NCBI RefSeq assembly: GCF_032484785.1 | Contig: NZ_JAUETR010000002.1 | Coordinates: 248,001 to 312,000, forward strand | Length of the DNA: 64,000 nt | Source: Bradyrhizobium sp. SZCCHNS1050 | GTDB lineage: Bacteria; Pseudomonadota; Alphaproteobacteria; Rhizobiales; Xanthobacteraceae | Direction: 5' to 3' | Shown: piece after piece, positions 18,535 to 40,686 of the stretch | Numbering within the stretch: position 1 is the stretch's first letter | Layout of the letters: the number at the start of each line of letters is the position of its first letter | The notes under the pieces: generated by a model | What the model was told of the DNA's origin: nothing | Database searches by the model: none | What the model saw: only the letters and a program-made list of their open reading frames with translations | Made by a program: the position numbers and the translations under genes

Positions 18535-18555
18535 ACGCGGGAAAGACGAAGACGT

Positions 18556-23984: not shown

Positions 23985-26900
23985 TCATGTGGATTCCGGC
24001 GGCGGAAGGTCGATGCCGAGGGCTTCGCAAAGCGGTCCAAGATGTTTCTCGTAGCGGCGCCAGCTTCCGATCGACCGGCGGTAGATCGGCTCGCGCACCT
24101 GCATCAGGCTCGCCGTGCGCACCATGCGCTCGGTGCGATGGAAGTCGAGGCAGGCATCCTCCCAGTCGAGGCCGCAATGATCGAGCACGCGGCGCGACAC
24201 GCCCTCGAGGTCGTCGACCAGATCCTCGTATCGAACGTCCATCAGGACGCCGGGCGGCAGCACCTGGTGCCAGTGTTCCATCACGCCCTCATAGCCCCGG
24301 TAGTAGTGGCCGAGCTCGGTCAGGTCGTAAGCAAAGGGCTGTGAGCCGGTGAACAGCAGCGAGTAGCAGGAAACGCAATTGTCGAGCGGGTCGCGCCGCG
24401 TGTTGATGATCCTGGCGCGCGGGAACGCCGCATGGATCATCCCGACGAACAGGAAGTTCAGCGGCATCTTGTCGACGATGCGCTCGGCCTCGGGCGCCAG
24501 CGTCCGAACGCGGGCGGTGTACTCCTGACCGATCTTCGTCATCTCCTCGGGTGGCAGCAGCGTGATCAGATCGGGATACGCCGGAACGACCTTCTGGCGG
24601 TTGGCGCATTCGCCGACGAGATCCTTGAAGGTCTCGAGCTCGCCCGCGCCGAAGACCTTGGAATGGCTGGCCAGCACCTGCTCCATCAGGGTGGTTCCGG
24701 AGCGCGGCATGCCGACGATGAAGATCGGGGCCCAGGAGTCGTCGCCGTGCCCTGCAACCATGCGAAAGAACTCGGGCGTGAAGCGCGCCGCGACATTTTT
24801 CATCATGCCGAGCCGCTGCTCGGAGTCGTAGTCGAAGGTCTTGCGCTTGAGGGTGTTCGCCTTGTGCAGATGCGAGAAGGCCTGGTCGTAGTCCTTCAGG
24901 TCGGACAACGCCTTGCCCATCGCGAAATGGGCTGCGATTTGCTTCTCCTGATCGAGACGGTCGACGCGTTCGAGGAGCTGCCGCAGACCAGGAAGCCGGC
25001 TGTCGTCCGGCTTGAACTTCGACATGTTCGCGAGATTGAGATGGATCGGCGCGTCGTCCGGCGCCAGCTCCAAGGCCTTCTGGAACGCCGCCGTCGCCTC
25101 GTCGAAGCGGCCGAGCGCCTGGTAGGCGACGCCGAGATTGTTGTAGGAGCCGAAGCGTTCCGGCTTGATCTTGATGGCCAGCAGGTTCTGCTCGATCGAT
25201 TCCTCGAGCCGGTTGAGCTCAAGGAAGGCATTGCCGAGATTGCCATAGGCGTCGGCATAGTCGGGCCGGCTCGCGATCGCCCGCTTGTAGTGCTCGATGG
25301 CGCGCTCGCGATGGCCCTGGCGCAGCAGCACGTTGGCGATGTTGTTGTGGGTCTCGGCGTGTTCAGGACTGAAGTCGAGAACCTTGAGATAGTGCTTCGC
25401 CGCCTCGATATCCTTGCCCGCCGTATAGAGCAGGTTGCCGAGCGCAAAATGCGCATCGAGGTGCTGCGGCTTGTTGTCGATCGCCCGCCGGAGCAGGGCG
25501 ATCGCCTCGTCGATCAGCCCCTGGTTCTGGCGCACCATGGCGAAGGCATAGAGGATGCCGGCGTGGCTCGGCGCCAGCGCAAGTGCCGTCTCGTAGTGCT
25601 GGACGGCCGTCTCATAATGGCCGGCGGAGGCCTCGACGGCTCCGATGCTGCCATGGGCCTCGGCGGACTTGTCGTTCACCGCGACCGCGCGCCGGAAGAA
25701 CTCCTTGGCCTCGTCGAGCCGGTTGGCGGTGGTGCAGACCATGCCGAGCCCGACCAGCGCGTCGAACTGGTTCGGCTGCCCCGCGAGGATCAGCTTGAAG
25801 ATCGTCTCGGCATCCTTGAAGTCACCGCGGCCTTGCAGCTTCTTTGCCACGGCGGCGGCGCCTTCGGCCAGAGTCTGCAGCGATCCGGCCTGCTGCGAAG
25901 CGAAGGAAAGCGATGCTGTCGTCGGCGTCACCACGGGCGGAGCGACGTTCACCGGCTGGGGCGGCTTGGCGCCCGCGATCGCCTCGGCAATCGTCGGCCG
26001 CACGGCCTCGCTGCCGAGCGCATCGAGCAGCGGCTTGAGCCGGTCGCCATACATGCGCCAGCGGCCGACCGATCCGGAGAACAGCGGCTTACGGACCTGG
26101 ACCAGGCTGGCGGTGTTCACCGGACGCTCGTTCTCGTGGAACGACAGGCAGGCATCATCCCAATCGAGCCCGCAATGCGCAACGATCTTGCGGGCATGCG
26201 CATCGAAGTCGCGCACCATGTCCTCATACGTCACCTCCAGCATGACGCCCTCTGGCAGCACCGAGCGCCAATGGCTCATCAAGGCGTCGTAGGCCCGGTA
26301 GTAGCGGCCGAGCTCGGCCAGATCGTAGGCGAAGGGCTGCGGCTCGGCGAACAGTTGGGTGTAGCAGGACAGGCAGGTGTCGATCGGATTGCGCCGGACG
26401 TGAATGATCCGGGCATTCGGCAGCGCGAGATGGATCAGCCCGGCGAACAGGAAGTTCGACGGCATCTTGTCGACGATGCGCTTGGTGTCCGCCGGCAGGT
26501 CCGTGAACCGGTCGAGATAGGCGCGCGCGAGGGTCGTGATGTCGGCGTCGGACAGCTTGGCGAGCATCTCCGGATAGTCACCGCGGTCACGATCGGTGAA
26601 CAGCCCCGCGGCGGCCGCGAAATAGTTGACCTCGCCGGCGCCATGCACGGCGGAATGGCTGGCGAGGAGCTGCTCGACCAGGCTGGTGCCGGACCGGGGC
26701 ATGCCGATGACGAACACCGGCGCGTGCGATGGATCGCCATGGCCTGCGCGCGCCTGTAGCATGTCCCTGGAGAACACCGCGCGGATGCGCTCGATCTGGC
26801 GCAGCGTCTGGTTCTCGTCATAGTTGATGCGGCGGCGCTCGAGAGCATTGCCGGCGTTGAGGTGCACCAGCGACCGTTCGCCGTCCTTGATGTCGGCATA

Positions 26901-28211
26901 AGCCCGCCCGAGGGTGAAGTGCAGGGCGATGCGCGCATCCTCGGTGAGTGTCTCCGATCTCGCGGCCAGATCCTGCAGAGGTGCCCAGCGCGCGTCGTCG
27001 ACCGCGAACGGCTTGACCACGCCGTAATTGAGGTGCGTGCCGATACTGCGCGGGTTGACAGCCAGGGCCGATTCATACGCGAGCGCCGCCTCGTCGAGCC
27101 GCCCCAGGATCATCAGCACGCCAGCGAGATGGTTCATCGTCGTGGCATCGCGGGGATCGTGGGCGAGGGCGGTTCGATAGCTCGCGACGGCGTCCTCGTA
27201 GCGCTGGATGTCGCGCAGCGCATCGCCGCGGTTGCGGTGGGCGACGGCATAGTCGGGGCGCCGGCGTACCGCCTCGTCGTAATGCGCGAGCGCCAGGTCG
27301 TGCTTGCCGCGCGATCGCAGCGCATTGGCGAGGTTGTTATGGGCCTCCGGGAAGTCCGGCCGCGCGGCGATGGCACGCTCGTAATGGAAGATGGCGGCAG
27401 GGCCGCTCTTCATCTCCAGGTGCAGATTGCCGAGATTGTAGTGCGCCTCTGCGAGCCGGGGGTTCAGGGCAAGGGCCTGCTGATAGGTGTGGATCGCGGC
27501 GTCGAGCTGACCGGTGGCCTGCTGACAGCCGCCGATGTTGAGCAGCACGACCGGCGCGTTGGGCTGGATCGCGAGCGCGCGCGAGTAGTGGACAATGGCT
27601 TCCGAGTGCCGCCCAAGCATGCGGCAGGCGTCGCCAAGGCTGGCGGCGGCTGCGGCGAAATCCGGCCGCGCGTCGAGTGCGGCCTCGTGATGCGCGAGCG
27701 CGCGCTCGTACTGGTCGAGGCGCTGCAAGGCAAAGCCGAGCGCCTGGTGCGCATCGGCGCTGCCCGCGTCCGCAGCCAGCAACAGCTCCAGATGCCGAAC
27801 CGCGCCGGCAGGATCGCCGAGGCTGGTGAGCGCGCTGCCGAGCAGAAGCCTGGCCTCGGTCGAGGTCTCGTCGAGCGCGACGGCGCGCTGCAGATGCGCG
27901 CTCGCTTTGGCGAGGTCGCCGAGGCCTGCGAAGGACTTGCCGAGCGACAGGTGCCGATCCGCGGCGTCACCGGCTTCCTCTGCGGCCTGGTCGAGCAGGT
28001 CGCGTGCCTCATGTGTGTCGCCGAGCTGCAGGCGGACCATGGCGAGGCTGCACAGGGTGCGGAAATGACGGGGCTGAAGCGAAAGAACCTTCCGGTAGGC
28101 CTGCTCGGCGATGCGCAAGGCTTGATCATTGAGCGCGGCCGCCGACGGCTGTCTGCCGTCGGACGCTGCGGGGACGAGGCGGGGACGGAAGGCGACGGCG
28201 AGCTCGTTCAT
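23985..28211 (-). CDS. Double TPR-sulfotransferase fusion protein
   Basis: A 1408-residue protein with two copies of the same design. TPRs (about residues 30-440) are followed by a sulfotransferase domain with the PAPS-binding loop PVFVIGMPRSGTSLVEQLLA (near residue 500). A second TPR block (about 790-1080) is followed by a second domain with PIFIVGMPRSGTTLMEQVLA (near residue 1165). Both domains also carry RIVDKMP-NFLF and NPIDTCLSCY / DPLDNCVSCY with the 3'-phosphate-site region. The loop resembles that of protein-tyrosine sulfotransferases (Sulfotransfer_3). Single-unit proteins of this type are common in Bradyrhizobium; two units in one chain are not usual. The protein has no signal peptide, so it should act in the cytoplasm. 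It lies next to the large secreted proteins and the type I exporter. Confidence 0.88.
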   Translation of the reverse strand: MNELAVAFRPRLVPAASDGRQPSAAALNDQALRIAEQAYRKVLSLQPRHFRTLCSLAMVRLQLGDTHEARDLLDQAAEEAGDAADRHLSLGKSFAGLGDLAKASAHLQRAVALDETSTEARLLLGSALTSLGDPAGAVRHLELLLAADAGSADAHQALGFALQRLDQYERALAHHEAALDARPDFAAAAASLGDACRMLGRHSEAIVHYSRALAIQPNAPVVLLNIGGCQQATGQLDAAIHTYQQALALNPRLAEAHYNLGNLHLEMKSGPAAIFHYERAIAARPDFPEAHNNLANALRSRGKHDLALAHYDEAVRRRPDYAVAHRNRGDALRDIQRYEDAVASYRTALAHDPRDATTMNHLAGVLMILGRLDEAALAYESALAVNPRSIGTHLNYGVVKPFAVDDARWAPLQDLAARSETLTEDARIALHFTLGRAYADIKDGERSLVHLNAGNALERRRINYDENQTLRQIERIRAVFSRDMLQARAGHGDPSHAPVFVIGMPRSGTSLVEQLLASHSAVHGAGEVNYFAAAAGLFTDRDRGDYPEMLAKLSDADITTLARAYLDRFTDLPADTKRIVDKMPSNFLFAGLIHLALPNARIIHVRRNPIDTCLSCYTQLFAEPQPFAYDLAELGRYYRAYDALMSHWRSVLPEGVMLEVTYEDMVRDFDAHARKIVAHCGLDWDDACLSFHENERPVNTASLVQVRKPLFSGSVGRWRMYGDRLKPLLDALGSEAVRPTIAEAIAGAKPPQPVNVAPPVVTPTTASLSFASQQAGSLQTLAEGAAAVAKKLQGRGDFKDAETIFKLILAGQPNQFDALVGLGMVCTTANRLDEAKEFFRRAVAVNDKSAEAHGSIGAVEASAGHYETAVQHYETALALAPSHAGILYAFAMVRQNQGLIDEAIALLRRAIDNKPQHLDAHFALGNLLYTAGKDIEAAKHYLKVLDFSPEHAETHNNIANVLLRQGHRERAIEHYKRAIASRPDYADAYGNLGNAFLELNRLEESIEQNLLAIKIKPERFGSYNNLGVAYQALGRFDEATAAFQKALELAPDDAPIHLNLANMSKFKPDDSRLPGLRQLLERVDRLDQEKQIAAHFAMGKALSDLKDYDQAFSHLHKANTLKRKTFDYDSEQRLGMMKNVAARFTPEFFRMVAGHGDDSWAPIFIVGMPRSGTTLMEQVLASHSKVFGAGELETFKDLVGECANRQKVVPAYPDLITLLPPEEMTKIGQEYTARVRTLAPEAERIVDKMPLNFLFVGMIHAAFPRARIINTRRDPLDNCVSCYSLLFTGSQPFAYDLTELGHYYRGYEGVMEHWHQVLPPGVLMDVRYEDLVDDLEGVSRRVLDHCGLDWEDACLDFHRTERMVRTASLMQVREPIYRRSIGSWRRYEKHLGPLCEALGIDLPPPEST

Positions 28212-28381
28212 GATGGCAACTTGCTGAATGTTCGACGAATGCCGTTGTCGAGGCGGATTGAAGCGAAACGGAGGCTTAGGTGAGGCCGATCGCAAACGGT
28301 CGGCTAGAACCCTTCGAGCAGCGGATGGAGCTTGTCCGGCCACGTGCAGCGTCGATGGCCGGTGCTGCCACAACGCAACGA

Positions 28382-28412
28382 GCCGGCGTAGACCCAAGGG
28401 ATCTGCGCCGGC
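28382..28412 (-). terminator. Hairpin after the 28439-30253 gene
   Basis: On the minus strand GCCGGCGCAGATCCC can pair with GGGTCTACGCCGGC across two bases: about 14 pairs with one mismatch and one bulge. It lies 27 bases after the stop. There is no T-run, so it may protect the 3' end or act with Rho. Confidence 0.4.
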
Positions 28413-28438
28413 CAATGTTGGTCAGGTTGCTGAAGGCG

Positions 28439-30253
28439 TCAGCCCCACATGTGGTGCATCGCGTGGTGGTGGGACATGTCCGGACCGCTCGAGGCTGCTG
28501 CCGCCGTTGCGGCCGTGGCCGCGGCTGCCGCCGTGTGGTGGCTGCTATGATGGCTGTGGTGGCCGCCGCAGTGATGCGTCGTGGTGGTGTTGTTGCCGCC
28601 GGTGGTTCCTCCGCCGGCCGTTCCACCGCCCGTCGTGCCGCCACCGGTCGTCCCACCACCCGTGGTGCCGCCGCCCGCAGTGCCGCCTCCGGTGGTGCCA
28701 CCACCGGTCGTGCCACCTCCGCCCATGCCGCCGCCGGGCGTGGTCGTGCTCGTAGGCGTTCCGCCCGTGCCGTTGGCGATGTTCGGATTGGCGCCCGCCG
28801 GCATGCCGGTGCCCTGGGCAATGCCATTGACCGCAGTCGCTGTCACGAAGCTCGTCGCTGAGGTCACGTAGGCCGATCCGCCGATCGCGATGTTGTTGCC
28901 CGCAATGTCTCCGGCATTGCCGATGTAGTTCGCGGCGGCAGCCTTCAACATCGCCTGATCGGTCGCCAGGGCTGTACCCGTGTCGCCGTTCATGATGCCC
29001 ATCAATGCCTTGGTGGCCATGATGGTGTCAGACTGCAGAGCTCCGGCGGCGAGCTCGTCGTCGAACCGTCCCTTGAACACCGCCCCCTGCGCCGCATCGA
29101 ACGCGGCGCCAAAGTTCTGGTAGTTCGTGATCTGGTCGATCAGGGCCTGTGACGCCGTACCTGTTCCATTTGCGACCGCAACCAACTTCGCACCCAGCGT
29201 ATTGCCCTCGGCGAGGAACGACGCCCAGAAATTGGTCTGCGCCTGATTATCCTGGAACTTCGTGACGGTCCCGGTCAGGCCGCCGGGCATTTCGGAGAAC
29301 CCGCCGATGTGACCAGGCGCGCCGGTGCCGCCCGCCGCTGCGTTGAGCGCCGCGTCGTTCTGAAACACGTCGATCATGTCGACGATGTTGTCGGCGGAGC
29401 CGCGCAGCGCCGTCGGATTGGCCATCGTCTCGGCGACATCGTATTTGTTCAGCTGAAGGTTTGCTTGGCTGAGCAGCGTCATCAGGTGAAGTGTCGTCGT
29501 TTGGGCCGCAACGGCGGTTTCACCGGCTTCAATCGCAGCGAGCTTCGCGGGGTCATTCAGGATCGCCTGAAGGCCCTGCGTCACGGCCGTAAAATCAGCC
29601 TGGATCTGGTTGATGTTGTTGGCGCTCATGCCGCCCAGCGAAAGGTCAGCGGCGGCATTGAACACCGTTCCGATGGCGGTCAGGTCGCCCGCGGCCGCTG
29701 CAGCGAGATTGGTGGCGCTGTCGTTGCCGGCGGGAAGGCTCTGGAACGCCACGTCCATGGCACCCGTGTTGGCCAGGAAGGGAACGTTGTTGAGCGCGGC
29801 GGAAAGATGCGCGTCACCCTGGATCTGCGCCAGGATCTGCATCTGCACGTTGTGGATGGTCTGGTCGGCCTCGGCGAGGGTCGCCGGATTGGTCGTGTTG
29901 GGTGCGGCGTTGATCAGCGTCGTGATCTCGTTCGAGACCTGGGTGAGCACCGCGGTGTCGGTCGCGTTGAGCGTGAATGCCTTGCCGCCGATCGTGACAT
30001 CTCCGGGATTGGCCAGCATCGCGTTGATGTCGTTCTGCACGGCATGCAGGTCTGTGGTGTAGCTGCCGAGGAACGGGTTGGAGTTGCCGCTGTTCTGGGG
30101 CGTCGAGAACAGACCGGTCGAGATGCGAACCGCGTCGTTGAACACGACGCCGGCCTGGACGAGGTCGGTCGACGGGTTGAGCGCAGAGGCGCGAACCAGC
30201 AGATTGGACGTGCCATTCGCCAGCGCCGTCGGGTTGAAGGTATTGGCTGCCAT
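28439..30253 (-). CDS. Large module protein 1, candidate type I secretion substrate (one module, His-rich tail)
   Basis: A 604-residue protein that I do not recognise. It begins ANTFNPTALANGTSNLLVRA without a signal peptide. One ~490-residue module, rich in Ala, Asn, Thr and Gly and predicted to be largely helical, is followed by a linker of pentapeptides GGGTT/GGGTA. A His-rich stretch (TTHHCGGHHSHHSSHH) and an Ala run follow, and the chain ends in GPDMSHHHAMHHMWG. The module matches each half of the 1097-residue neighbour. The only cysteine is in the His-rich tail. It lies in a run with a type I exporter, an O-heptosyltransferase and a sulfotransferase, which suggests it is modified and exported. 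The ribosome site is GGGGAG. Export is inferred from context. Confidence 0.85.
   Translation of the reverse strand: MAANTFNPTALANGTSNLLVRASALNPSTDLVQAGVVFNDAVRISTGLFSTPQNSGNSNPFLGSYTTDLHAVQNDINAMLANPGDVTIGGKAFTLNATDTAVLTQVSNEITTLINAAPNTTNPATLAEADQTIHNVQMQILAQIQGDAHLSAALNNVPFLANTGAMDVAFQSLPAGNDSATNLAAAAAGDLTAIGTVFNAAADLSLGGMSANNINQIQADFTAVTQGLQAILNDPAKLAAIEAGETAVAAQTTTLHLMTLLSQANLQLNKYDVAETMANPTALRGSADNIVDMIDVFQNDAALNAAAGGTGAPGHIGGFSEMPGGLTGTVTKFQDNQAQTNFWASFLAEGNTLGAKLVAVANGTGTASQALIDQITNYQNFGAAFDAAQGAVFKGRFDDELAAGALQSDTIMATKALMGIMNGDTGTALATDQAMLKAAAANYIGNAGDIAGNNIAIGGSAYVTSATSFVTATAVNGIAQGTGMPAGANPNIANGTGGTPTSTTTPGGGMGGGGTTGGGTTGGGTAGGGTTGGGTTGGGTTGGGTAGGGTTGGNNTTTTHHCGGHHSHHSSHHTAAAAATAATAAAASSGPDMSHHHAMHHMWG
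28597..28722. repeat. 15-bp minisatellite coding GGGTT/GGGTA pentapeptides
   Basis: About eight 15-bp units inside the 28439-30253 gene code for GGGTT or GGGTA in tandem. The unit is in frame, so copy-number changes would alter linker length without breaking the gene. The Thr residues are possible O-glycosylation sites. Confidence 0.85.
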
Positions 30254-30395
30254 TGATCATCTCCCCAAGTTTCAACCCGGCGTCTGCTGCTTGGCGTATG
30301 GGCAGCACGCGGGCGTTGATCGGGCAGCGACGTCTCGTTCGCTCCTTCGCGGAACGGGCGAAATGTCGCAGCCTCAGAGCACCTGGGAATTATTT

Positions 30396-30455
30396 GCTCC
30401 AATGGGGCCAAAAGAAGCGCCGCGGAGTCCTCAAATATGATGTTGTTCGGGCAAA
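30396..30455 (-). promoter_or_regulatory. Upstream element shared with the 34114 gene (copy 1)
   Basis: A ~60-base element 143 bases before the start at 30253. On the minus strand, ATATTTG, GGACTCC, TTTTGGCCC and ATTG occur in this order, and the same blocks occur 176 bases before the sister gene at 34290-34350. The surrounding untranslated sequence is much less similar. It may be a shared promoter or a regulatory RNA leader. I cannot assign a sigma factor. Confidence 0.5.
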
Positions 30456-30792
30456 TGGCTCCTGTCGCAGCCGGGTCACGGCGGCGGTCGGAAGCTTACT
30501 AACTCGTTGATTTCCGTCGTGGCATCCCCGCAACATCGTCGCTCAGCGGCGCTTCGACGCACGGTCCAGACAAGAAGTTGCCCCGATCTTGCGACCGGTC
30601 ACCGATCTCTCCTTAGAAAAGTTCCAGCGTGACGAGCCTCCGCGGTGCGGAACGGAACGTGCATCTTTGTTGATCTTCCGAGGCCTCCTTCTTCAACGCG
30701 TGTCGTCTCGCCCGGCTCATTGTCCTTCTCATTTCCCCCGGGAGCACTGCGCGAGTGGACCTCATCTGCTTGCTCCCGGGTATCCGTATCCC

Positions 30793-30814: not shown

Positions 30815-30820
30815 GCCTCG

Positions 30821-33800
30821 TCAACCCCACATGTGATGCATCGCGTGGAGATGCGACATGTCGGGCCCGGCAGCCGCGGCCTGGCTCATATGCGCGCCCT
30901 GGCTTTGATCGTGATGATGGTGATGATCGCTGTGATGCGTGGCGTTGCTGCCGTTGTTGGCCGTGGTACCCGTCGACGTGCCGCCAGCCGCCGTTCCGCC
31001 AGCCGCCGTGCCGCCAGCCGCGGTTCCGCCGGTCGACGTGCCTCCGTTCGCCGCGGTGCCACCGGCTGCAGCGCCACCGGCGGCGGTGGTTCCTGCCGCA
31101 GCAGTGCCGCCGGTGCCGTTGGCCAGGTTCGGTGTCGCGGTGACCGGAATGGTGCCGTGCGCGGTCCCCTTGATTGAGGTCGCCGCCGAGACCGTCGTGG
31201 CCGTCCCAACATAGGTGCCGCCATTGACCGGAATGTTGTTGCCGGAGACGTCCATGGCGTCGGCGGCAAAGCCCTGGCCGGCCGCGGCGACCATCGCCTT
31301 GTCTGCCGCAAGTGCTGCGCCGGTGTCGCCGTTGAGGATGCCTTGCAGGCCCTTGACCGCGTTGGCGGTGTCGGCTTCGAGCGTGCCGCTGAGCAGTTCG
31401 TTGTCGAACCGACCCTGGAACACGGCCCCCTGGGCGGCGTCGAAATTGGCGCCGAACTGCTGGTAGTTCTGGATCTGCGTGATCAGGGCCGCGCTCGCCT
31501 GCGCACCGCCGGTCGAGATTTTCTGCAGCGTGGCGTTGATGGTGTTGGCCTCGGCCAGGAATGCGGCCCAGAAATTCGTCTGCGCCTGGTTGTCCTGGAA
31601 TTTGGTGACCGTCCCCTTGAGCCCGCCCGGATCCTCGGCAAAGCCGCCCGCATGGCCGGCGTTGCCGTTGCCACCTGCCGCCATGTTGAGGTTGGTGTCG
31701 CCCTGGATGATGTCGATGATGTCGAGCAGGTTGTCGGCCGTGCCGCGGAGAGCGGCCTGATTGCCGGTGGTCGCAGCCTGATCATACTTGCCCAGCTGCA
31801 GGTTGATCTGGCCGAGCGCTGTCTGCAGATGGATCGTCGTCAGCGCCGCGGCGTTGGCAGTCTCGCCAGCCTCGATCTGCGCGAGCTGGGTCTTGTTGTT
31901 GAGGATGGCCGTCAGTCCGTGCTGGACGGCGGTGAAGTCCGCGGTCACCTCGGCAAGGTTACCGGTGTTGATGCCGCCCGAGGCGACCTCGACGGCCTTG
32001 TTGAAGACCAGACCAACGTCCTTCAGGCTGTTGCCGGCGGTAGCGGCGGCAAGACTCGCCGGATCGTCCGCGCCCGCGGGCGACGTCTGGAAGGCGACGT
32101 CCTGGCCGCCGGTATTGGCGAGGAAGGGGACGTTGTTCAACGCGTTCGCCAGATGCGCGTCGTTGTGGATTTCGCCGAGGATTTCCTGCTGCAGCGCATG
32201 GATCGTCTGGCTTGCCGCTGCCGATGTGCTGGCGTTGGCGAACTGTCCCGCCGCCTGCAGCAGTGTGCCCAGTTGCCCCTCGACATTGGTCAGCACCGCC
32301 GTGTCGGTCGCGTTCAGGGCGAAGGTCTTGCCGCCGAGCGTGACCTGACCAGGGTTGGCCAGCATCGCCGCAATATCGGTCTGCACCGCCGTGATGTCGG
32401 CCTGGTAGCTGGTGAGGAAGGCCGGCGAGTTGCCGCTGTTGGCGAGGCTGAAGAGGCCGAGCGAGGCGCGCACCGCGTCGTTGAAGACGACGCCAGCCTG
32501 CACCAGGTCGGTCGAATGCTGGATCGCCGTGGCACGGGTCAAAAGGTTCGACGTGCCGTTGGCAAGCGCGGTCGGGCTGAAATTCACCGGCGTGGCGCCA
32601 CCAGCCGGCGGCGTCGACGATGAGCCGCCGGTGCCGTTGGCAATGTTCGGGGTTGCCGTGACCGGGATCGTGCCCTGGGCGAGTCCGTGCACCGACGTGG
32701 CCGTCGAGACCGTGGTCGCCGAGCCGACATAGGTCGCGCCGCCGATCGCGATGTTGTTGCCGGAAACGTCCATGGCGTCGGCCGCGAAGCCCTGGCCGGC
32801 CGCGGCGAGCATCGCCTTGTCCGCGGCAAGCGCAGCGCCCGTATCGCCGTTCAGGATGCCTTGCAGGCCCTTCACCGCGGCCGCCGTGTCGGCTTCGAGC
32901 GTGCCGCTCAGAAGCTCGTTGTCGAAGCGGCCACGGAAGACGTTGCCTTGCGCGGCATCGAAATTGGCGCCAAATGCCTGATAGTTCTGGATCTGAGTGA
33001 CCAGTGCGGCGCTGGCCTGCGCTCCGCCGGTTGCGATCTTCTGCAGGGTCGCGTTGATGGTGTTGCCTTCCGCCAAGAAGGCGGCCCAGAAATTCGTCTG
33101 CGCCTGGTTGTCCTGGAACTTGGTGACCGTGCCGGTCAACCCGCCCGGATCCTCCGCGAAGCCGCCGGCATGGCCGGGCATGCCGTTGCCGCCCGCGGCC
33201 TTGTTCAGATTGGCGTCGTTCTGAATGATGTCGATGCTGTCGAGCAGATTGTCCGCCGTGCCGCGCAGCGCAGCCTGATTGCCGGTTGTTTCCGCCTTGG
33301 CATACTGGTTGAGCTCGAGATTGATCTGCCCGAGCACCGTTTGCAGATGGATGGTCGTGAGCGCGGCCGCGTTCGCCGTTTCGCCATTCTCGATCTGGGC
33401 AAGCTGGGTCTTGTTGTTGAGGATCTTGGTGAGACCTTGCGAGATCGCGGTGAGGTCGTTCGTTACCTCCTGCAGGTTCGCGGTGCTGATGCCGCCGGAG
33501 GCGAGGTCGACGACCTTGTTGAAGACGAGGCCGACATCCTTCAGCGTGTTGCCTGCGGTCGCTGCGGCCAAGGTCGCCGCATCATCGGCACCGGCCGGCG
33601 TGTTCTGGAAGCCGACGTCCTGGCCGCCGGTGTTGGCGAGGAAGTTGACCTTGTTGAGCGCGCCGGACAGATGCGCGTCGCCGTTGATCTCCTGCAGGAT
33701 CTCCTGCTGGACCGCGTGCAGGGTCTGATCCGCGGCTGTGATCGTCGCAGCATTCGTGGTCTGCGGTGCGGCCGTGAGCAGCGTCGAGATCTGCGCCTGC

Positions 33801-34114
33801 ACGTTGGTGAGAACGGCGGTGTCGGTCGCATTCAGCGTGAAGGCCTGGCCGCCCAGGGTCACCTGGCCGGGATTTGCGAGCATCGCGGCGATGTCGTTCT
33901 GTACGGCGTGGAGATCGGTCGTGTAGCTGCCGAGGAACGGGTTCGAGTTGCCGCTGCCTGCCTGCGTGAACAGGCCGAGCGAGGCGCGCACCGCATCGTT
34001 GAACACCACGCCGGCTTGGACGAGGTCGGTCGACATCTTGAGCGCTGAGGCGCGCACCAGCAGGTTCGACGTTCCGTTGGCCAGCGCCGTCGGGTTGAAG
34101 GTGTTATTCGCCAT
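30821..34114 (-). CDS. Large module protein 2, candidate type I secretion substrate (two modules, His-rich tail)
   Basis: A 1097-residue protein of unknown family. Module 1 spans residues 1-510 and module 2 from 511 (NFSPTALANGTSNLLTRA) to about 1015; the two are highly similar and both match the 604-residue neighbour. The linker is GGTAA/GGTST pentapeptides. The His-rich tail ATHHSDHHHHHDQS is followed by AAAAGPDMSHLHAMHHMWG, the same ending as in the neighbour. There is no signal peptide, no membrane segment and no cysteine, as is usual for type I substrates. No RTX GGxGxD calcium repeats are seen. The upstream gene, 553 bases away, is an O-heptosyltransferase. The Thr-rich linker and the Asn/Thr-rich modules are possible modification targets (inference). 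Confidence 0.85.
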   Translation of the reverse strand: MANNTFNPTALANGTSNLLVRASALKMSTDLVQAGVVFNDAVRASLGLFTQAGSGNSNPFLGSYTTDLHAVQNDIAAMLANPGQVTLGGQAFTLNATDTAVLTNVQAQISTLLTAAPQTTNAATITAADQTLHAVQQEILQEINGDAHLSGALNKVNFLANTGGQDVGFQNTPAGADDAATLAAATAGNTLKDVGLVFNKVVDLASGGISTANLQEVTNDLTAISQGLTKILNNKTQLAQIENGETANAAALTTIHLQTVLGQINLELNQYAKAETTGNQAALRGTADNLLDSIDIIQNDANLNKAAGGNGMPGHAGGFAEDPGGLTGTVTKFQDNQAQTNFWAAFLAEGNTINATLQKIATGGAQASAALVTQIQNYQAFGANFDAAQGNVFRGRFDNELLSGTLEADTAAAVKGLQGILNGDTGAALAADKAMLAAAGQGFAADAMDVSGNNIAIGGATYVGSATTVSTATSVHGLAQGTIPVTATPNIANGTGGSSSTPPAGGATPVNFSPTALANGTSNLLTRATAIQHSTDLVQAGVVFNDAVRASLGLFSLANSGNSPAFLTSYQADITAVQTDIAAMLANPGQVTLGGKTFALNATDTAVLTNVEGQLGTLLQAAGQFANASTSAAASQTIHALQQEILGEIHNDAHLANALNNVPFLANTGGQDVAFQTSPAGADDPASLAAATAGNSLKDVGLVFNKAVEVASGGINTGNLAEVTADFTAVQHGLTAILNNKTQLAQIEAGETANAAALTTIHLQTALGQINLQLGKYDQAATTGNQAALRGTADNLLDIIDIIQGDTNLNMAAGGNGNAGHAGGFAEDPGGLKGTVTKFQDNQAQTNFWAAFLAEANTINATLQKISTGGAQASAALITQIQNYQQFGANFDAAQGAVFQGRFDNELLSGTLEADTANAVKGLQGILNGDTGAALAADKAMVAAAGQGFAADAMDVSGNNIPVNGGTYVGTATTVSAATSIKGTAHGTIPVTATPNLANGTGGTAAAGTTAAGGAAAGGTAANGGTSTGGTAAGGTAAGGTAAGGTSTGTTANNGSNATHHSDHHHHHDQSQGAHMSQAAAAGPDMSHLHAMHHMWG
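30967..31111. repeat. 15-bp minisatellite coding GGTAA/GGTST pentapeptides
   Basis: About nine imperfect 15-bp units in frame inside the 30821-34114 gene, coding for GGTAA, GGTST and similar. The matching position in the sister gene has GGGTT units of the same length, so the linker repeat is conserved in period but not in sequence. Confidence 0.8.
31090..34114. repeat. Two tandem ~1.5-kb copies of the module sequence
   Basis: The DNA for residues 1-510 (34114-32585) and from 511 on (32584 to about 31090) codes for nearly the same protein; long stretches match almost base for base. A third, more divergent copy is in 28730-30253. Homologous recombination between copies could change the number of modules. 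Confidence 0.85.
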
Positions 34115-34289
34115 AGATCATCTCTCCCCAAGTTCATCCGACGCCCGGCAGGGCCCCGTACCGAAACTGGCCGGACGATGCGGAAGCGCATCGGCCCTGC
34201 GTCGGACGTGCTGCGCCGCGCCTCACGCCCGTGCGCCGCTGTGTCGCGCGCTTTTCTGACGCGCGCTACTTTGTCGCACCTCGCTATAT

Positions 34290-34350
34290 GCTCGGAGCAA
34301 TCGGGCCAAAAAAGGCGTGGGGGAGTCCGCAAATATGTTGTTCTCGGGAC
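34290..34350 (-). promoter_or_regulatory. Upstream element shared with the 30253 gene (copy 2)
   Basis: The second copy of the element at 30396-30455. On the minus strand it reads AACAACATATTTG, GGACTCC, then TTTTTTGGCCC and ATTG. It lies in the 553-base gap between the heptosyltransferase stop and the 1097-residue protein. The rest of that gap shows no supported gene. Confidence 0.5.
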
Positions 34351-34667
34351 ATCGCGGATCTGTGACAGATGCGCCGCGATCGCGTGCCAAGTGATTGATT
34401 TCTGGCGGCAAGCAGCAAATGCGGGGTGCGGCGATCGGGCGCGAATTGCATGTTGTCGTCAAGATGCTGCCTGCATCTCGCCGGTGAGTGGCCGGTCTCC
34501 GGAGATCAGACGCAGGGTTGGTCTGATGCGCTCGAGGTTGCCCGGCGACACGGGCGCGCGGCATTGTCGCAGCGCGATCGCTGGAAAAACGCCACGATGG
34601 ATCGTCTGTCCGGGGGAGTGAGAGGCGAAGGCGCCTGGGCGTATCGGCCGACCTCGCCGTGCGCCGT

Positions 34668-36797
34668 TCAGGACGGCGGCGCGGCCTGACGCTGTGCCAG
34701 GAGCGCAGTCCTGATCTTCTGCAGCAGTGTAGTGTAGAGCTGATTCCAGGCCGGGTCATTCTGCCCGTTCGCGTCCAGCCCTTGCTTGGTCAGGCCCAGG
34801 CTGATCCGGTAGACGGCGAGCGCGCCGTCGATGTTGCCGAGTGGAATGAAGGCATCGCCCAGACTCTGGTAGGAATTTGCAAGCGCCTGCTGCAGCGACG
34901 GATCGTTGGCGACCGTGTTGGCGAGGTGGGTGATCAGCGCGGTATTGGCGCGACGCTGCTCGAAGGCTTCGGCATGGCGGCCCTGGGCGGCGAGCACGTC
35001 CGCCAGCAGAGCGTGGCACCAGGCGAGGTCGCGCTCAAAGCTGAGATTGCCGCGGTGAGCTGCGGTCAGCTTCCGGATGATGGCGAGGCTGGCGGAATAG
35101 GCGGCATGCGCAGCCTCGAGGTTTCGCTGAACGAACAACACGGCGCCAATGCGGTTCAAGGCGACCGAGAGGTTGCGTTGAAACCCGGCGTCGTCCGGAT
35201 TGGCTACGGTCAGGTACCTGACGATGGCGATGCTCTGCTTGTAGTTCTGCAGCGCGCCCATGAGATCGCTCGCGGTGGCTGCGCGATCGCCTTCCGCGAT
35301 GCCGGCGGCAGCCTGATCCAGCAGCCTGCCGGCGGCGACCGTGACGCCGACTGCAAGGCCCCCGCGGGCAACGTCGCCGCACGGTTGCGCCAGCAGTGCT
35401 GCGAGCGCGACCGGTTCGTCGCTCTCCACGGATTCCGGCGCCGACTCTGCCCTCGAGGTTCGATGCCGATCAAAGGGCGCAGGCGCCGCCTGCTGCTGAG
35501 AGGTGCGCGGTTGCGGATGCAATCCCTGTCCGAAGCCGGGAATTCGGCGCAACATGCCCTCGACCTGCGCGGCCGTGATCAGGCGCGTGCACTCGAACTG
35601 TCGGGACGTGCCCTGCCATCGCGGGCACCACAGAAAGTCCTCATGGTCGAAGCGATGACTGGCATCATTCCAGCAACTGTTGCAGGCGTGATGGTTGATG
35701 ACCCGATAGGGGGTCGCAAACTCGTTGGTGGGGTGGGTGAAGCCGCTGATCAGCACGACCGGAGTGCCGACCGCCCAGGCCAGCCATGACAACCCCGAGG
35801 AAAGGCCGATGAAGAACGCGGCGTGCTTGAGCCAGCGGGCGCGCTCGGGCAGCGGCCGGTCGCCGGTCTGATCCTCGGCTGCGGCGGGAATTTGCGTCCG
35901 GTAGGCGCCGTGGCTGCGCTCCGCGGTCTGATCGATGCAGATCACGCGATAGCCGGTCTCGCGGAGGAAGGCCACGATGCTCTGCCAGCCCTCAGGATTG
36001 TTCCAGTGCTTGCACGCGGTCGTTGCTTGCATGGCGATGCAGACATAGGGGTCCTCGATGGGACGGCTGTCTTCGCTCAACGCGACGCGAGGTGGACGCT
36101 CGGCCGGATCCACGCCGAGAATGTGAGCTGCGGTCCGATGCAGGCCGACCTGCCTGAAATCATAGGGCTGATGGACCAGCTCGGCATCGTCGAAGAACAG
36201 CCCGACCGAGTAGGTTGCGTAGTATCGCTCCGGCTGGACCGTCTCGTGGCTGAGGAATGCGATGTCAGGGTAGGCGTCGCGGAACAGCGGGATCAGCGGC
36301 TCGCCCATCGCACAGCTCAGGCGGCACCGATGCAGGTCCTTGAACTTCACTGCATAGCTCATCCAGCCGATGATGTCGCCGATCGTGCCGACCGGGAATT
36401 GGATCAGGACGTCGCGGTCGGTGGCGTCATAGTCGTGGCACAGCAGCAGCTCGGGCCCTGACCACACTTCGAGCCTGAACGGGACAAAGTAGCGTTTGCT
36501 GCTGTTGACGTGCCCAGAACGCAGGTCGATGTCGAACAGGACGTTGGCGGTCTCGAGATCGCTCAATCGGACGTGCCAGGCGTGTCCGGTGTCGGGCAGC
36601 ATGACACGACAGCCGTCGTTGAAGTCGAAGCGCAGCCCCTGGGGACCCTCCTGGGTCGGCACGGCCGCTGGCGGCGGCAGTCGCGGCTTTCGTGCGTGAT
36701 CAGACGCCTCGGTGCGGGCGCCGGGCTGGGCGGACGGTAACGCACTTGCCGGCACCATCGCCGGGTCTGAGGTGCGGGGAAAATTTGCAACGTTCAT
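34668..36797 (-). CDS. TibC/AAH-type protein O-heptosyltransferase fused to a TPR domain
   Basis: A 709-residue protein. Residues about 45-425 match the autotransporter strand-loop-strand O-heptosyltransferase family (BAHT; TibC and AAH). They include the N-terminal beta domain (RFDFNDGCRVMLP, LLCHDYDATDRDVLIQFPVG TIGDIIGW), the GT-B part (VCIAMQATTACKHWNNPEGW, FIGLSSGLSWLAWAVGTPVV) and the four-cysteine metal site Cys372, Cys375, Cys391 and Cys403 (ACNSCWND, LWCPRW, FECTR). The known enzymes add heptose from ADP-heptose to Ser of autotransporter passengers in the cytoplasm. The C-terminal ~230 residues are TPR-like (AVYRISLGLTKQGLDANG and earlier helices), which is not part of the usual family. 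No autotransporter is nearby; the neighbours are a type I exporter and two module proteins. Confidence 0.87.
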   Translation of the reverse strand: MNVANFPRTSDPAMVPASALPSAQPGARTEASDHARKPRLPPPAAVPTQEGPQGLRFDFNDGCRVMLPDTGHAWHVRLSDLETANVLFDIDLRSGHVNSSKRYFVPFRLEVWSGPELLLCHDYDATDRDVLIQFPVGTIGDIIGWMSYAVKFKDLHRCRLSCAMGEPLIPLFRDAYPDIAFLSHETVQPERYYATYSVGLFFDDAELVHQPYDFRQVGLHRTAAHILGVDPAERPPRVALSEDSRPIEDPYVCIAMQATTACKHWNNPEGWQSIVAFLRETGYRVICIDQTAERSHGAYRTQIPAAAEDQTGDRPLPERARWLKHAAFFIGLSSGLSWLAWAVGTPVVLISGFTHPTNEFATPYRVINHHACNSCWNDASHRFDHEDFLWCPRWQGTSRQFECTRLITAAQVEGMLRRIPGFGQGLHPQPRTSQQQAAPAPFDRHRTSRAESAPESVESDEPVALAALLAQPCGDVARGGLAVGVTVAAGRLLDQAAAGIAEGDRAATASDLMGALQNYKQSIAIVRYLTVANPDDAGFQRNLSVALNRIGAVLFVQRNLEAAHAAYSASLAIIRKLTAAHRGNLSFERDLAWCHALLADVLAAQGRHAEAFEQRRANTALITHLANTVANDPSLQQALANSYQSLGDAFIPLGNIDGALAVYRISLGLTKQGLDANGQNDPAWNQLYTTLLQKIRTALLAQRQAAPPS

Positions 36798-36864
36798 GTC
36801 GAGGTGCCGACGCGGTCTGCGTTCATTCGTGAGCGATGACGCCGACCGCGGCCGTTCGGTCTTG

Positions 36865-38820
36865 TTACTCCACGAAGGCGCGGCGCCACTGATCGAGAAC
36901 CGGCTTCATCAGATAGCTGAGCATCGTCCGGCTGCCGGTTTGAACGTAGACTTCGGCCTGCATGCCGGGCATCAGGTTGACGTTGCCGAGCCGCTTGCGC
37001 TCCTCGTCGGACAGCGTGATCCTGACCGTGTAGAAGGTGGAGCCGGTTCGCGGGTCATTGGTGATATCAGGCGACACGAACGAGACCTGGCCGCTCAATT
37101 TCGGCGTGGTGCGCTGGTTGAAGGCGTTGAAGTGGACCATCGCATCCTGCCCGGTGTGAACGTGATCGATATCCTTGGGCTGGACGTGCCCTTCGACCTG
37201 CAGTTCGTCCGAATCGGGGACCAGCTCCATGACGGTCTCACCCGGCTTGATGACGCCGCCGATGGTGTGGATCGCGAGCTGGTGGATGGTGCCGGAGTTC
37301 GGCGCGCGCATCTCGATGCGATCGAGCTGGTCGCGCGCGGCGACGCCCTTCTCGACCAGATCGCCTTCCTTGGCCTGGGACTCGCTGAGGTCCTTGACCA
37401 CCTCACTGCGGAAATCCTGATCGATCTTGACGGTCTGGAGCTCGGCTTCGCTGATCTTGGACCTCGTCTCCGCCACGCTGGACACCAGCTGGCCGCGTTC
37501 ACCGTCGATCCGAGCGGCTTCCCGCTGCAGCGTGGTCAGTCGCGTCAGCGGAACGAGCCGCTTGTCATAGAGCTCCTGCACGCCGGCCAACTCGCCCTTG
37601 ATCAGCTCGATCTGCTTGTTCTTGGATTCGAGCTGAGACTCCATGCCGCTGATTTCGTTGTTCAGCTGGACGATGCGGCCCTGCAGCAGCTCTTTCTGGC
37701 TCTTGCGGGTCGTGGCACGGGCCTTGAACAGCGCGTTCTCCGACGCGATCACGGTGCGGACGTTCGGATCGTCCTGACGTGAGGTCAGAGTGGACGGATA
37801 GTCCGGCTGATCGAGACCGTCACGCTCGGCCGAGAGCCGCGCAATCTTGGCGCGCTGCTCGTTCAATTGCTTGGTGATCGCCTGGAGCTGGGCCTGGCTC
37901 TGCGTAGCGTCGAGCCGCACGAGCAGATCGCCCGCCGCGACGCGCTTGCCGTTGTCGACCTTGATTTCCGCGACAATGCCGCCGGTCGGATGCTGAATGG
38001 CCTTCACGTTGGATTGCACCACGAGATTGCCGGGAACCACGATCGCGCCGGCGAGCGGCACGAGGGTCAGCCAGCCGCCGCCGAGAACGCCGGCGACAAG
38101 CAGCACCCGCAAGCCGAGACGCAACTCGTTCTCGAACATGCGGCTGACGCGCGGCACCAGCGATTCGTCCGAACCGTCGTCGAGATCGGCCGCCGTTCCT
38201 TGCGTCGCAATGAAGGTCATGCCGGTGGTCAAGGCCGTACCGGCGGTACCGACCAGGCGGCCGACACGGGTTTGCGGAACGGCAGGCGCATGCGCCAGAC
38301 GGGCGGGAAGGTTCTGCTGCCCGACCGCGCGCGGCGCGCCGACGCCGAAATTGCCGTCGCGTCGTGCATCCTGCAGGTCGAGCAGGGGCGCCGAATTGCT
38401 GCCCGCCATGCGCGCGGGCGGATGGCGCGGCGGCGGCGACAGCTCCGGCTCGTTGCCGCGCATCGGTGCGGGCTGCTGCCAGTCCATCTCGCGGATGCCT
38501 TCACCCCGGCGTGTCCGGGGCGCCTGGGCGCCGAGACCGAACAGCGACAGCGACGCACCGAGGGCGCGGCCCATGGTGCTGCCCTTCTTCTTCGAACGCG
38601 GCTTTGGCCTGCCTGGCGACGGTGGCGGACGCCGTCGCTTCTTGCCGCCGTCCCGTGTGCCGTGGCGCTGCCGCGGGTCCTCGTCGGAGCCGTCGTCGAA
38701 TGCGCCCTGCAGCCGCTGCAGCTCGAGAATCAATGCATCGCCCTGCGGACCGACCGCGCGAGTCTTCGGTCGCACATAATCGTCGTCGTCGAACGGCCTG
38801 AAGTCGTTGATGTGTTTCAT
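36865..38820 (-). CDS. Type I secretion membrane-fusion protein (HlyD family) with a long N-terminal extension
   Basis: A 651-residue adaptor of a type I secretion system. The single membrane segment is at about residues 237-258 (LRVLLVAGVLGGGWLTLVPL). After it come the lipoyl/barrel-sandwich halves (GNLVVQSNVKAIQHPTGGIV, RAPNSGTIHQLAIHTIGGVI), a long coiled coil between them, and the HlyD C-terminal block MPGMQAEVYVQTGSRTMLSY. The usual family length is about 430-480, so roughly 230 residues are extra. This cytoplasmic part is acidic at first (FDDDDYV, DDGSDEDP), then Arg/Lys/Pro-rich and probably disordered. The ATG lies three bases after the ABC transporter stop, so the two are coupled. 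No TolC gene is in the window. Confidence 0.9.
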   Translation of the reverse strand: MKHINDFRPFDDDDYVRPKTRAVGPQGDALILELQRLQGAFDDGSDEDPRQRHGTRDGGKKRRRPPPSPGRPKPRSKKKGSTMGRALGASLSLFGLGAQAPRTRRGEGIREMDWQQPAPMRGNEPELSPPPRHPPARMAGSNSAPLLDLQDARRDGNFGVGAPRAVGQQNLPARLAHAPAVPQTRVGRLVGTAGTALTTGMTFIATQGTAADLDDGSDESLVPRVSRMFENELRLGLRVLLVAGVLGGGWLTLVPLAGAIVVPGNLVVQSNVKAIQHPTGGIVAEIKVDNGKRVAAGDLLVRLDATQSQAQLQAITKQLNEQRAKIARLSAERDGLDQPDYPSTLTSRQDDPNVRTVIASENALFKARATTRKSQKELLQGRIVQLNNEISGMESQLESKNKQIELIKGELAGVQELYDKRLVPLTRLTTLQREAARIDGERGQLVSSVAETRSKISEAELQTVKIDQDFRSEVVKDLSESQAKEGDLVEKGVAARDQLDRIEMRAPNSGTIHQLAIHTIGGVIKPGETVMELVPDSDELQVEGHVQPKDIDHVHTGQDAMVHFNAFNQRTTPKLSGQVSFVSPDITNDPRTGSTFYTVRITLSDEERKRLGNVNLMPGMQAEVYVQTGSRTMLSYLMKPVLDQWRRAFVE

Positions 38821-38823
38821 TGA

Positions 38824-40686
38824 TCAAGCGCTTTCTGCTGGGGCGGCGCGACGAAGCGAGCGGGCGTTCGGATTTGGCGCCGCTGCGGGAGCAGCAACCC
38901 TGGGCGGAGCGGGGGCATGCGCGACGGCGGGTCCCGCGGCCTTGTTGGCTCCGGCGACGCGGGCAAAGATCTCCTGGCAGGGACCGAATGCGATCGCCTT
39001 GCCCTCGTACAGCACCAGCGCCATGTTGAGCGCATTCAGCGCGCTGGGACGGTGCGAAATCACGATCACGATGCTCTGGTTCTGCTGCCGCATGATCTGA
39101 ATGGCGCGGCTGAGCGCGTTCTCGCCGTCGGTGTCCAGATTGGCATTCGGCTCGTCGAGGACGATGAGAAAGGGATCGCCATACACCGCGCGGGCCAGAC
39201 CCACGCGCTGCCGCTGACCGGCCGACAGCGACATGCCGCCTTGGCCGATTCGCGTCGAATAGCCTTCCGGCAGCCGCAGGATGATGTCGTGCACGCCGGC
39301 GATCTGCGCCGCCTTCAGAATCGCATCCGAGCTCGCATTCTCGTCGAAGCGGCAGATGTTGTCGGCGATGCTGCCGTCGAACAGGGCAACGTCCTGCGGC
39401 AGGTAGCCGATGTGGCGGCCGAGATCCTCGTTGCTCCATTGGTCGAGCGCTGCGCCGTCGAGGCGGACGGATCCATGCTGTGCAGGCCAGATGCCGACCA
39501 GCGCCTTCGAGAGCGAGGTCTTGCCGGAGGCACTCGCGCCGAGCAGTGCCAGACCCGTGCCTGCCTTGATCGAGAACGACACGTTTTGAACAATCGGCCG
39601 ATCGGTGCCCGGCGCGGTGACCGTCAGCTCCTGTACGGTCAGCTCGCGGAACGGGCGGGGCAACGCGACCGGCGGCGCTTCCGGCCTGGCGGTGGCCTTG
39701 CAGATATCGCGCAGACGCGCGATGCCCTGGCGCGCGGCGACCAGCTGTTTCCAGCTGCCAAGTGCGATCTCGATCGGGGCGAGCGCGCGGCCCATCAGGA
39801 TCGACGAGGCCATCATCACGCCGCCGGAGGCCTGCTCGGAGACGACGAGCGCCGCGCCGATGCCGAGCATGCCCGACTGCAGGATGAAGCGCAGCACTTT
39901 CGCGGCGGCTCCGAGATTGGCGTAGACATCGCTCGCGCGAATGTTGTCCTTCAGATAGCGCTCGTTGACGGCGTTCCAGCGTGCCGAGAAGCGATCCAGC
40001 ATTCCGAGCGCGCGAATCACCTCGGCATTGCGCTGGGTGGCGTCGGCGAGAACCTGCCGCGCGGCGCTCGTATCGCTGGCGGATTTGCTCGCCTGACGCG
40101 ACAACCGGTCGGTCACCAGCGTCATCGAGATGATTCCGGCCGTGCCGATGACGGCCGTGATGCCGATCAGCGGATGAAACAGAAACATGCCGATCAGGAA
40201 GATCGGTATCCATGGCATGTCGAGAAAGGCGGTTGGTCCCATGCTCGACATAAAGGCGCGCAGCTGGTCGAGATCGCGCAGCGGCTGCTGCATCAGCATC
40301 GGCTTGGTGCCGCGCAGGGGCAGGGTGGCCAGAGCGTGATGAATCGCGTCCTGCAAGCTCGCGTCGAACACGGTCGCCACCCGGCACAGCATGCGGGTGC
40401 GCAACGCGTCGAAATAACCCTGAATCAGATAGACGGCTAGAATCATCACCGACAGGCCGACGAGCGTGGCGAGATTCTTGCTCGGAACGACGCGATCATT
40501 GACCTGCATCATATAAACCGAGCCCGAGAGCATCAGGATGTTGATGACGCCGCTGAACACGCCGATGCCGGCCATGCGTTTGACAGCCTGGCGCAACCCG
40601 CGCGTCACCGGATCGTCGCTTCCCGAGAGAAGGTCGTTGAGGGCAGCCGCGGCTTTCGTTCTCGGGCGGTCTTGAGCCAGACTCAT
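38824..40686 (-). CDS. Type I secretion ABC transporter (PrtD/LapB-like permease-ATPase)
   Basis: A 620-residue inner-membrane exporter subunit. It has an N-terminal membrane domain with about six helices (GVFSGVINILMLSGSVYMMQ and later) and a C-terminal ATPase. Walker A is GASASGKTS, signature LSAGQRQRVGLARAV, Walker B LIVLDEPNANLD and switch His ISHRPS. It has no N-terminal C39 peptidase domain, so it does not cleave double-Gly leaders; this is the PrtD type that recognises C-terminal signals. The tail is Ala/Pro-rich. The ATG at 40686 has GGGAGA upstream; a GTG at 40707 adds seven residues. It is the first gene of the minus-strand cluster reaching to 23985. Confidence 0.92.
   Translation of the reverse strand: MSLAQDRPRTKAAAALNDLLSGSDDPVTRGLRQAVKRMAGIGVFSGVINILMLSGSVYMMQVNDRVVPSKNLATLVGLSVMILAVYLIQGYFDALRTRMLCRVATVFDASLQDAIHHALATLPLRGTKPMLMQQPLRDLDQLRAFMSSMGPTAFLDMPWIPIFLIGMFLFHPLIGITAVIGTAGIISMTLVTDRLSRQASKSASDTSAARQVLADATQRNAEVIRALGMLDRFSARWNAVNERYLKDNIRASDVYANLGAAAKVLRFILQSGMLGIGAALVVSEQASGGVMMASSILMGRALAPIEIALGSWKQLVAARQGIARLRDICKATARPEAPPVALPRPFRELTVQELTVTAPGTDRPIVQNVSFSIKAGTGLALLGASASGKTSLSKALVGIWPAQHGSVRLDGAALDQWSNEDLGRHIGYLPQDVALFDGSIADNICRFDENASSDAILKAAQIAGVHDIILRLPEGYSTRIGQGGMSLSAGQRQRVGLARAVYGDPFLIVLDEPNANLDTDGENALSRAIQIMRQQNQSIVIVISHRPSALNALNMALVLYEGKAIAFGPCQEIFARVAGANKAAGPAVAHAPAPPRVAAPAAAPNPNARSLRRAAPAESA

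Follow-up and report, generated by a model that had tools for sequence, protein, structure and literature searches.

Heptosyltransferases of the TibC/AAH family (BAHTs; TIGR04414; PDB entries 4RAP and 4RB4) put seven-carbon sugars on autotransporter adhesins. Here we analysed a stretch of 64,000 nucleotides from the 7.6 Mb genome of Bradyrhizobium sp. SZCCHNS1050 (assembly GCF_032484785.1, contig NZ_JAUETR010000002.1, positions 248,001 to 312,000; the whole stretch is hereafter called the window), in which a BAHT gene lies between the genes of a type I exporter and those of two related proteins, MOD1 and MOD2, followed by the gene of a double TPR-sulfotransferase. While the enzyme and exporter families are known, the novelty of the locus is that its BAHT has no usual target that was detected, carries an extra domain and lies beside an undescribed protein family with a predicted helical core. 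As in PrtD/HasD-type type I systems, the ATP-binding cassette (ABC) protein and the HlyD adaptor both exceed curated cut-offs, whereas the candidate substrate matches neither a curated family nor an RTX family. Likewise, TPR-sulfotransferases with a supply of 3′-phosphoadenosine-5′-phosphosulfate (PAPS; CysD, CysNC/NodPQ-like) share with the locus the Sulfotransfer_3 domain, the PRSGT loop and, in loci of relatives, CysD and CysNC, but the window protein has two units and its gene shares a locus with MOD and a type I exporter.

The original prediction had placed six genes on one strand of this region, and all six open reading frames (ORFs) are present on the minus strand at approximately the positions proposed, with the known families confirmed above their cut-offs, i.e.: a PrtD-type type I secretion ABC permease/ATPase (38824..40707; TIGR01842, 669.6 bits, cut-off 510), an HlyD-type periplasmic adaptor whose N-terminal part is long (36865..38820; TIGR01843, 392.8 bits, cut-off 208.65, residues 233–651), the BAHT, a TibC/AAH-family O-heptosyltransferase fused to a C-terminal TPR-like helical domain (34668..36797; TIGR04414, 630.6 bits, cut-off 200, residues 45–419), MOD2 with two modules (30821..34114), MOD1 with one module (28439..30253) and the sulfotransferase (23985..28211; PF13469, 326 bits, cut-off 27, two stretches). 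The ABC and HlyD genes are 3 bases apart and the BAHT gene follows after 67, so that these three look like one operon; MOD2 and MOD1 are preceded by long leaders of 553 and 567 bases, respectively, and 227 bases separate MOD1 from the likely ATG of the sulfotransferase. The gene set, which the original prediction had proposed to look for in other genomes and whose absence elsewhere would have counted against it, recurs with all six genes in the same order in four further named genomes (loci L055 to L058, of which L057 is from BTAi1), and the arrangement is therefore not due to chance.

The window BAHT matches TibC, whose structure is known, with an E value of 8e-131 and shares with the TibC/AAH enzymes the whole catalytic region. 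All nine TibC residues that are named as catalytic, donor-binding or iron residues in the structure paper (PMC4358343; this and all other papers are cited here from excerpts), i.e. the catalytic base, four sugar-binding residues and the four iron-finger cysteines, are kept (9/9). In contrast to TibC, the window enzyme has Ser at the position of Pro-300, a residue tied to donor choice in the same source, and carries a C-terminal TPR-like domain that the original prediction had not mentioned. In the predicted structure, this extension consists of nine helices (residues 487–705; predicted local distance difference test, pLDDT, of 81–97 by block except for the last one) after a disordered linker; its TPR nature is suggested by Pfam matches below the cut-off in the window protein, by TPR families in close relatives (P0133 and P0136) and by the helical model.

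The extension was found in seven of the eight genomes with a MOD-linked BAHT, i.e. the window genome (G000), B. aeschynomenes 83002 (G089), SRS-191, BTAi1, SSBR45G, STM 3809, in which the BAHT is cut, and the metagenome-assembled genome (MAG) CP_BM_ER_R9_4 (G542), in which the extension is seen at least in part. In the eighth, STM 3843 (L064), a separate ORF of 190 residues resembling the extension directly follows the BAHT. The BAHTs of nine repeat-linked or other Bradyrhizobium loci end at most 16 residues past the matched region. Phylogenetic analysis of seven MOD-linked rows from six genomes (L063 being too short and G542 not entered) placed the MOD-linked BAHTs in one clade with a support of 100/99, and its nearest neighbour, at a weaker support of 88/84, was the enzyme of L051, from a repeat-linked locus.

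One BAHT was found in the window genome, and matches over the cut-off were found in 10 of 149 relatives, all belonging to the genus, and in 8 of 398 genomes of a phylum sample, including that of the window, in mixed settings such as next to a polyketide synthase gene. The latter was seen by a scan of L127 (27–10217), and L128 and L131 look alike as judged by ORF size and start only. Strand-loop-strand repeats (TIGR04415), the usual BAHT target, were searched at E≤0.001 with a positive E. coli control. They were present in all eight other BAHT genomes of the genus (G002, G004, G012, G034, G068, G073, G093 and G101) and were detected in none of the eight genomes with a MOD-linked BAHT named above, nor in six MOD genomes without a BAHT (8/8 versus 0/8, exact test 1.6e-4, the eight MOD-linked genomes being kin). 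Since no strand-loop-strand partner was detected in its genome, the window BAHT is, as far as sequence can tell, a family member by its enzyme and not by its target. The original prediction also stated that no autotransporter is nearby, which holds: the window has two weak PF03797 matches (2556–3065 and 3609–4106), on ORFs of 261 and 269 residues.

The original prediction further suggested that the pairing of this enzyme family with a type I route would be new, which is not supported in that form. In six (L044, L045, L047, L048, L049 and L051) of nine other Bradyrhizobium loci with an uncut BAHT (a tenth, L054, was dropped owing to its cut BAHT), this gene has an HlyB-type ABC gene and an HlyD gene in its vicinity, the ABC gene of L044 (TIGR01846 HlyB, 1026 bits) serving as the reference for those of the other five, while no such genes were found within the fetched stretches of L046, L050 and L053. 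BAHTs beside type I exporter genes thus recur in Bradyrhizobium, and the window locus differs by its candidate substrate, its exporter type and the extra domain: the other loci have a HlyB-type exporter, a repeat protein and no TPR-like extension, as opposed to the PrtD-type exporter, MOD and extension of the window. TIGR04415 repeats occur in large neighbour proteins of L044, L045, L047 and L051. The large proteins of L044, L045, L048 and L051 gave no match to an autotransporter barrel, a weak negative because the same scan missed L123, whose end looks barrel-like by eye. In the literature searched (titles and abstract starts, most subscription papers being outside the coverage), a BAHT with type I secretion was not described, and the one paper in which Bradyrhizobium, a heptosyltransferase and type I secretion came up together (PMC3125207) reports, in its available part, a heptosyltransferase adjoining an adhesin and treats an RTX cluster separately. 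The HlyB-type exporter of L044 is also accompanied by a protein of about 1000 residues (16105–19101) with cadherin-like and papain-like (PF15645) matches, with relatives in L045, L047, L048 and L049, which is perhaps a second substrate of that exporter.

MOD1 and MOD2 showed no NCBIfam match at E≤0.01 and no Pfam family above the cut-off, and the family was described nowhere in the literature searched with the coverage given above. An autotransporter nature was considered and rejected, as neither protein matched PF03797, PF16168 or TIGR04415; similarly, an RTX substrate was rejected, as no family of RTX calcium-binding repeats was among the Pfam matches at E≤0.01. The two modules of MOD2 are 81 % identical over 475 residues. 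The predicted structure of MOD1 (51 sequences; mean pLDDT 75.9, predicted template modelling score 0.74) has an all-alpha core of three bundles (around 29–158, 186–312 and 334–458), the first two being an internal duplication, followed from around residue 476 by a tail that is modelled as disordered (pLDDT mostly <50). This tail begins with a low-complexity, strain-variable part (with units of GGGTT in the window and of PAPTT in L055 and L058; Gly/Thr-rich in MOD1), continues with a His-rich part and closes with a conserved end (HHMWG or similar), in which H600 and W603 are invariant among 13 proteins.

Proteins of named Bradyrhizobium sp. strains are 96–97 % identical to MOD1, and those of B. 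oligotrophicum S58 and Bradyrhizobium sp. ORS 278 83–86 % over 83 % of its length. A protein search returned 353 relatives at E≤0.001, and among the best 120 of these the organism-named ones were from Bradyrhizobium, except for one protein from a Rhodopila MAG. MOD matches were found in 9 of 60 relatives (counting the window genome). In the wider order, a search of 297 genomes (at most four candidates scored per genome) gave four with a MOD, each from the same genus as the window; a MOD profile search of contigs also matched MAGs named Hyphomicrobiaceae, Hyphomicrobiales, Xanthobacteraceae and Rhizobiales. Two extra copies, 63 and 32 % identical, are located elsewhere in the window genome, with no PrtD-type gene in the fetched 20 kb.

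Counting presence within the fetched stretch for 39 named loci retrieved by the MOD profile, a PrtD-type ABC gene was found in 26; of the other 13, seven are short or cut contigs (L060, L063, L065, L067, L069, L080 and L087) and six are copies distant from the exporter (L061, L062, L081, L083, L084 and L085). Divergent from the exporter genes, and overlooked by the original prediction, the window carries on the plus strand a cytochrome b561 fused to an ethylbenzene-dehydrogenase-type (EB_dh) domain (41642..43573; PF01292 and PF09459 over cut-off) and a 2Fe-2S/FAD/NAD oxidoreductase (43573..44607; PF00111, PF00970 and PF00175 over cut-off), which are part of the conserved neighbourhood. The cytochrome gene is present in 18 of the 39 loci, and a match of at least 500 bits was found in 11 of 60 relatives, every one of which has a MOD: nine are the MOD-match genomes, and G019 and G028 have a shorter MOD adjoining the cytochrome gene. 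Weaker cytochrome relatives (314–336 bits) occur in G018, G022 and G059, which have no MOD match. The reductase gene adjoins the cytochrome gene in relatives, and the pair was also seen with MOD and exporter in L020, L024, L076, L082 and others.

Since MOD usually adjoins the exporter and the cytochrome/reductase pair, it is very probably the exporter's substrate. The original prediction of two related proteins without signal peptide (as judged by eye) travelling by the type I route fits this neighbourhood and the conserved C-terminus. Based on their joint occurrence across relatives, the ancestral set comprises MOD with ABC and HlyD as well as the cytochrome and the reductase, whereas neither BAHT nor sulfotransferase belongs to it. 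The redox pair together with the His-rich tails may point to a function of MOD related to redox, heme or metal.

The sulfotransferase ORF (23985–28415, with the likely start at the ATG at 28211) contains two Sulfotransfer_3 stretches and many TPRs. Its two halves are 39 % identical, and PRSGT, which we take to be the PAPS-loop motif, is found at residues 573 and 1237. Such a gene accompanies MOD in 8 of the 39 named loci (L055–L059 and L065–L067), and in two of them, from Bradyrhizobium sp. Tv2a-2 (L066) and MAG CP_BM_RX_45 (L065), the genome has no BAHT match, so that the sulfated acceptor need not be heptose. The sulfotransferase probably joined the MOD locus before the BAHT, which appears as the late arrival. 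PAPS is made by CysNC and CysD. In MAG CP_BM_ER_R9_4 (L059, 6613–9539), genes for CysNC (996.5 bits, cut-off 715) and CysD (510.6 bits, cut-off 396.6) lie between HlyD and MOD, and in L065 (3–1004) a CysD gene that is truncated where the contig ends, and scores 394.6 bits, slightly short of the cut-off of 396.6, adjoins MOD and the sulfotransferase. The presence of sulfate-donor genes within such loci supports real sulfation there. For the window, where the original prediction had added sulfation with a "perhaps", this genome logic is supportive, and we regard sulfation of MOD or its glycan as an evenly balanced prospect.

From the enzyme families, the intact active site, the gene linkage, the donor-pathway genes and the lack of a detected usual target, we infer how MOD might be modified and exported. 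MOD1 and MOD2 would be the cargo of the PrtD/HlyD type I exporter encoded next to them. Prior to secretion, in the cytoplasm, the BAHT would transfer heptose from ADP-heptose of the lipopolysaccharide (LPS) pathway to hydroxyl residues of MOD, most likely in the threonine (Thr)-rich disordered tail preceding the conserved C-terminus, with the extra TPR-like domain probably binding the new substrate in place of TibC's fit to the beta-helix. The TPR-sulfotransferase would add sulfate from PAPS to the MOD protein in an older, separate step. On balance, we lean slightly towards this reading as a whole, i.e. a BAHT recruited to a new helical, Thr-tailed substrate that is exported by the type I route, plus a separate older sulfation. 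Heptosylation of MOD by the BAHT, taken by itself, seems reasonably probable, and for this part of the original prediction the genome comparisons speak through the intact BAHT residues, the absence of detected usual targets in the eight genomes and the adjacency to MOD in two gene orders. In MAG CP_BM_ER_R9_4, one contig ends with MOD, sulfotransferase and the start of the BAHT, and another with the remaining BAHT and the extension; as this order differs from that of the window and L055–L058, the tie between BAHT and MOD is not merely a frozen operon.

As to the donor, the window genome has an HldE domain gene over the cut-off (C1:461630–462571) and a GmhA-like gene (C1:464998–465450) at 194 bits with a cut-off of 209. 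Heptose supply was tried as a discriminator of BAHT genomes and rejected: of 110 relatives, 65 have an HldE domain above the cut-off and 64 have a GmhA-like match, in every case below the cut-off. The donor pathway is widespread rather than a mark of BAHT genomes, and shows donor availability only. Heptose is among the labelled LPS parts of ORS278 in a figure legend (PMC4743980).

With regard to the acceptor, BAHTs act on Ser or Thr (PMC8151025), and the tail of MOD1 contains 23 % Thr. Defining the tail as the region after the GNN...GG motif, we compared 42 MOD rows, having left out beforehand cut MODs (L060, L063, L069, L080, L092, the second of L064 and the third of L059), the tandem protein of L073 and L075, for which no MOD ORF was called. 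The median Thr content was 19.0 % in 18 near-type MODs from BAHT genomes versus 11.4 % in six from BAHT-less genomes (p 1.8e-4), 9.5 % in 14 far-type MODs without a BAHT and 7.2 % in four far-type MODs from BAHT genomes. We read the Thr-rich tail as what would be the likeliest heptose acceptor in MOD.

Several observations weigh against such a modification. For Ser plus Thr of the tail, no difference was seen between near-type MODs of genomes with and without a BAHT (p 0.09), and the rows are all related to one another. The acceptor pattern named in PMC3125207, VXSGG/VXNSGG, is absent from MOD1 and present once in MOD2, in comparison with 34 copies in the repeat protein of L044, 7 in that of L051 and 67 in that of L123. 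TibC acts on a folded beta-helix (PMC8151025), whereas the core of MOD is modelled as helical, and the heptosyltransferases of E. coli have been called promiscuous (PMC5000012), so other targets are possible. Furthermore, MODs do well with the exporter in the absence of a BAHT, a search of 17 MOD genomes having given none above the cut-off in 11, and the eight BAHT–MOD genomes are related and may therefore reflect a single event.

The most serious alternative, which we nevertheless consider unlikely, is that the BAHT modifies another protein, such as the extended HlyD, a flagellin or an autotransporter of the genome that lacks recognised repeats, and is next to MOD by operon position only, with MOD still being the exporter's substrate. 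It would fit the spacing of the BAHT gene, much closer to HlyD (67 bases) than to MOD2 (553 bases), the 14 PF03797 matches of the window genome (13 over the cut-off) and the statement in PMC8151025 that a BAHT need not be located next to its target. In enterotoxigenic E. coli, Ser and Thr residues of flagellin have likewise been found to carry heptose (PMC5000012), a finding that equally gives any non-autotransporter target, MOD included, a precedent. On the other hand, no TIGR04415 repeat was detected in the window genome or the seven other genomes with a MOD-linked BAHT, the BAHT of MAG CP_BM_ER_R9_4 adjoins the sulfotransferase and MOD rather than HlyD, and that of STM 3809 (L063) is also followed by MOD. 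Rather improbable is a route in which heptose, once attached to MOD by the BAHT, is the acceptor of the sulfotransferase, giving a sulfated sugar instead of a sulfated protein; both enzymes indeed lie with MOD in the window, the four named genomes and MAG CP_BM_ER_R9_4, but Tv2a-2 and CP_BM_RX_45 possess sulfotransferase and MOD with no BAHT match in the genome, which argues that the first acceptor is not heptose. That the BAHT is a drifting relic inherited from a repeat-linked ancestor, or lacks a protein target here, as the undetected usual target might suggest, is very improbable given the 9/9 key residues kept, an open frame of around 710 residues in five genomes and the gain of a new domain.

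If heptosylation and export of MOD are true, the known scope of the BAHT family widens to helical exported proteins in plant-associated Bradyrhizobium, and type I exporters could carry proteins that were glycosylated, and perhaps sulfated, in the cytoplasm. To our knowledge, the Nod-factor-independent plant entry of these bacteria is unexplained. One may go further and propose, tentatively and with more doubt than for the heptosylation itself, that Nod-independent photosynthetic bradyrhizobia, aided by the newly gained TPR-like domain, re-aimed a TibC-type enzyme away from beta-helical repeats and towards Thr-rich tails of an unrelated family with a helical core, and export a heptosylated, sulfated, mucin-like MOD by the type I route, linked to a membrane redox pair. 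Among the genes that PMC3899966 (in its available part) lists as specific to strains independent of Nod factors is BRADO3973 of ORS278, annotated as peptide N-acetylglucosaminyltransferase-related. By its numbering this would be the BAHT of ORS278, because BRADO3971 is a MOD and S58 has the BAHT S58_40000 and the MOD S58_40020. The same list contains the HlyD-family BRADO7122, numbered next to the TPR O-GlcNAc-transferase-related BRADO7123, perhaps another exporter with a protein-modifying enzyme.

Elsewhere in the window, a caspase-domain protein (PF00656) with a peptidoglycan-binding domain is encoded at 18556–20031, and five consecutive ORFs of 234–275 residues lie on the minus strand at 521–5237, the only one scanned (1459–2250) being an OMP_b-brl outer-membrane protein.

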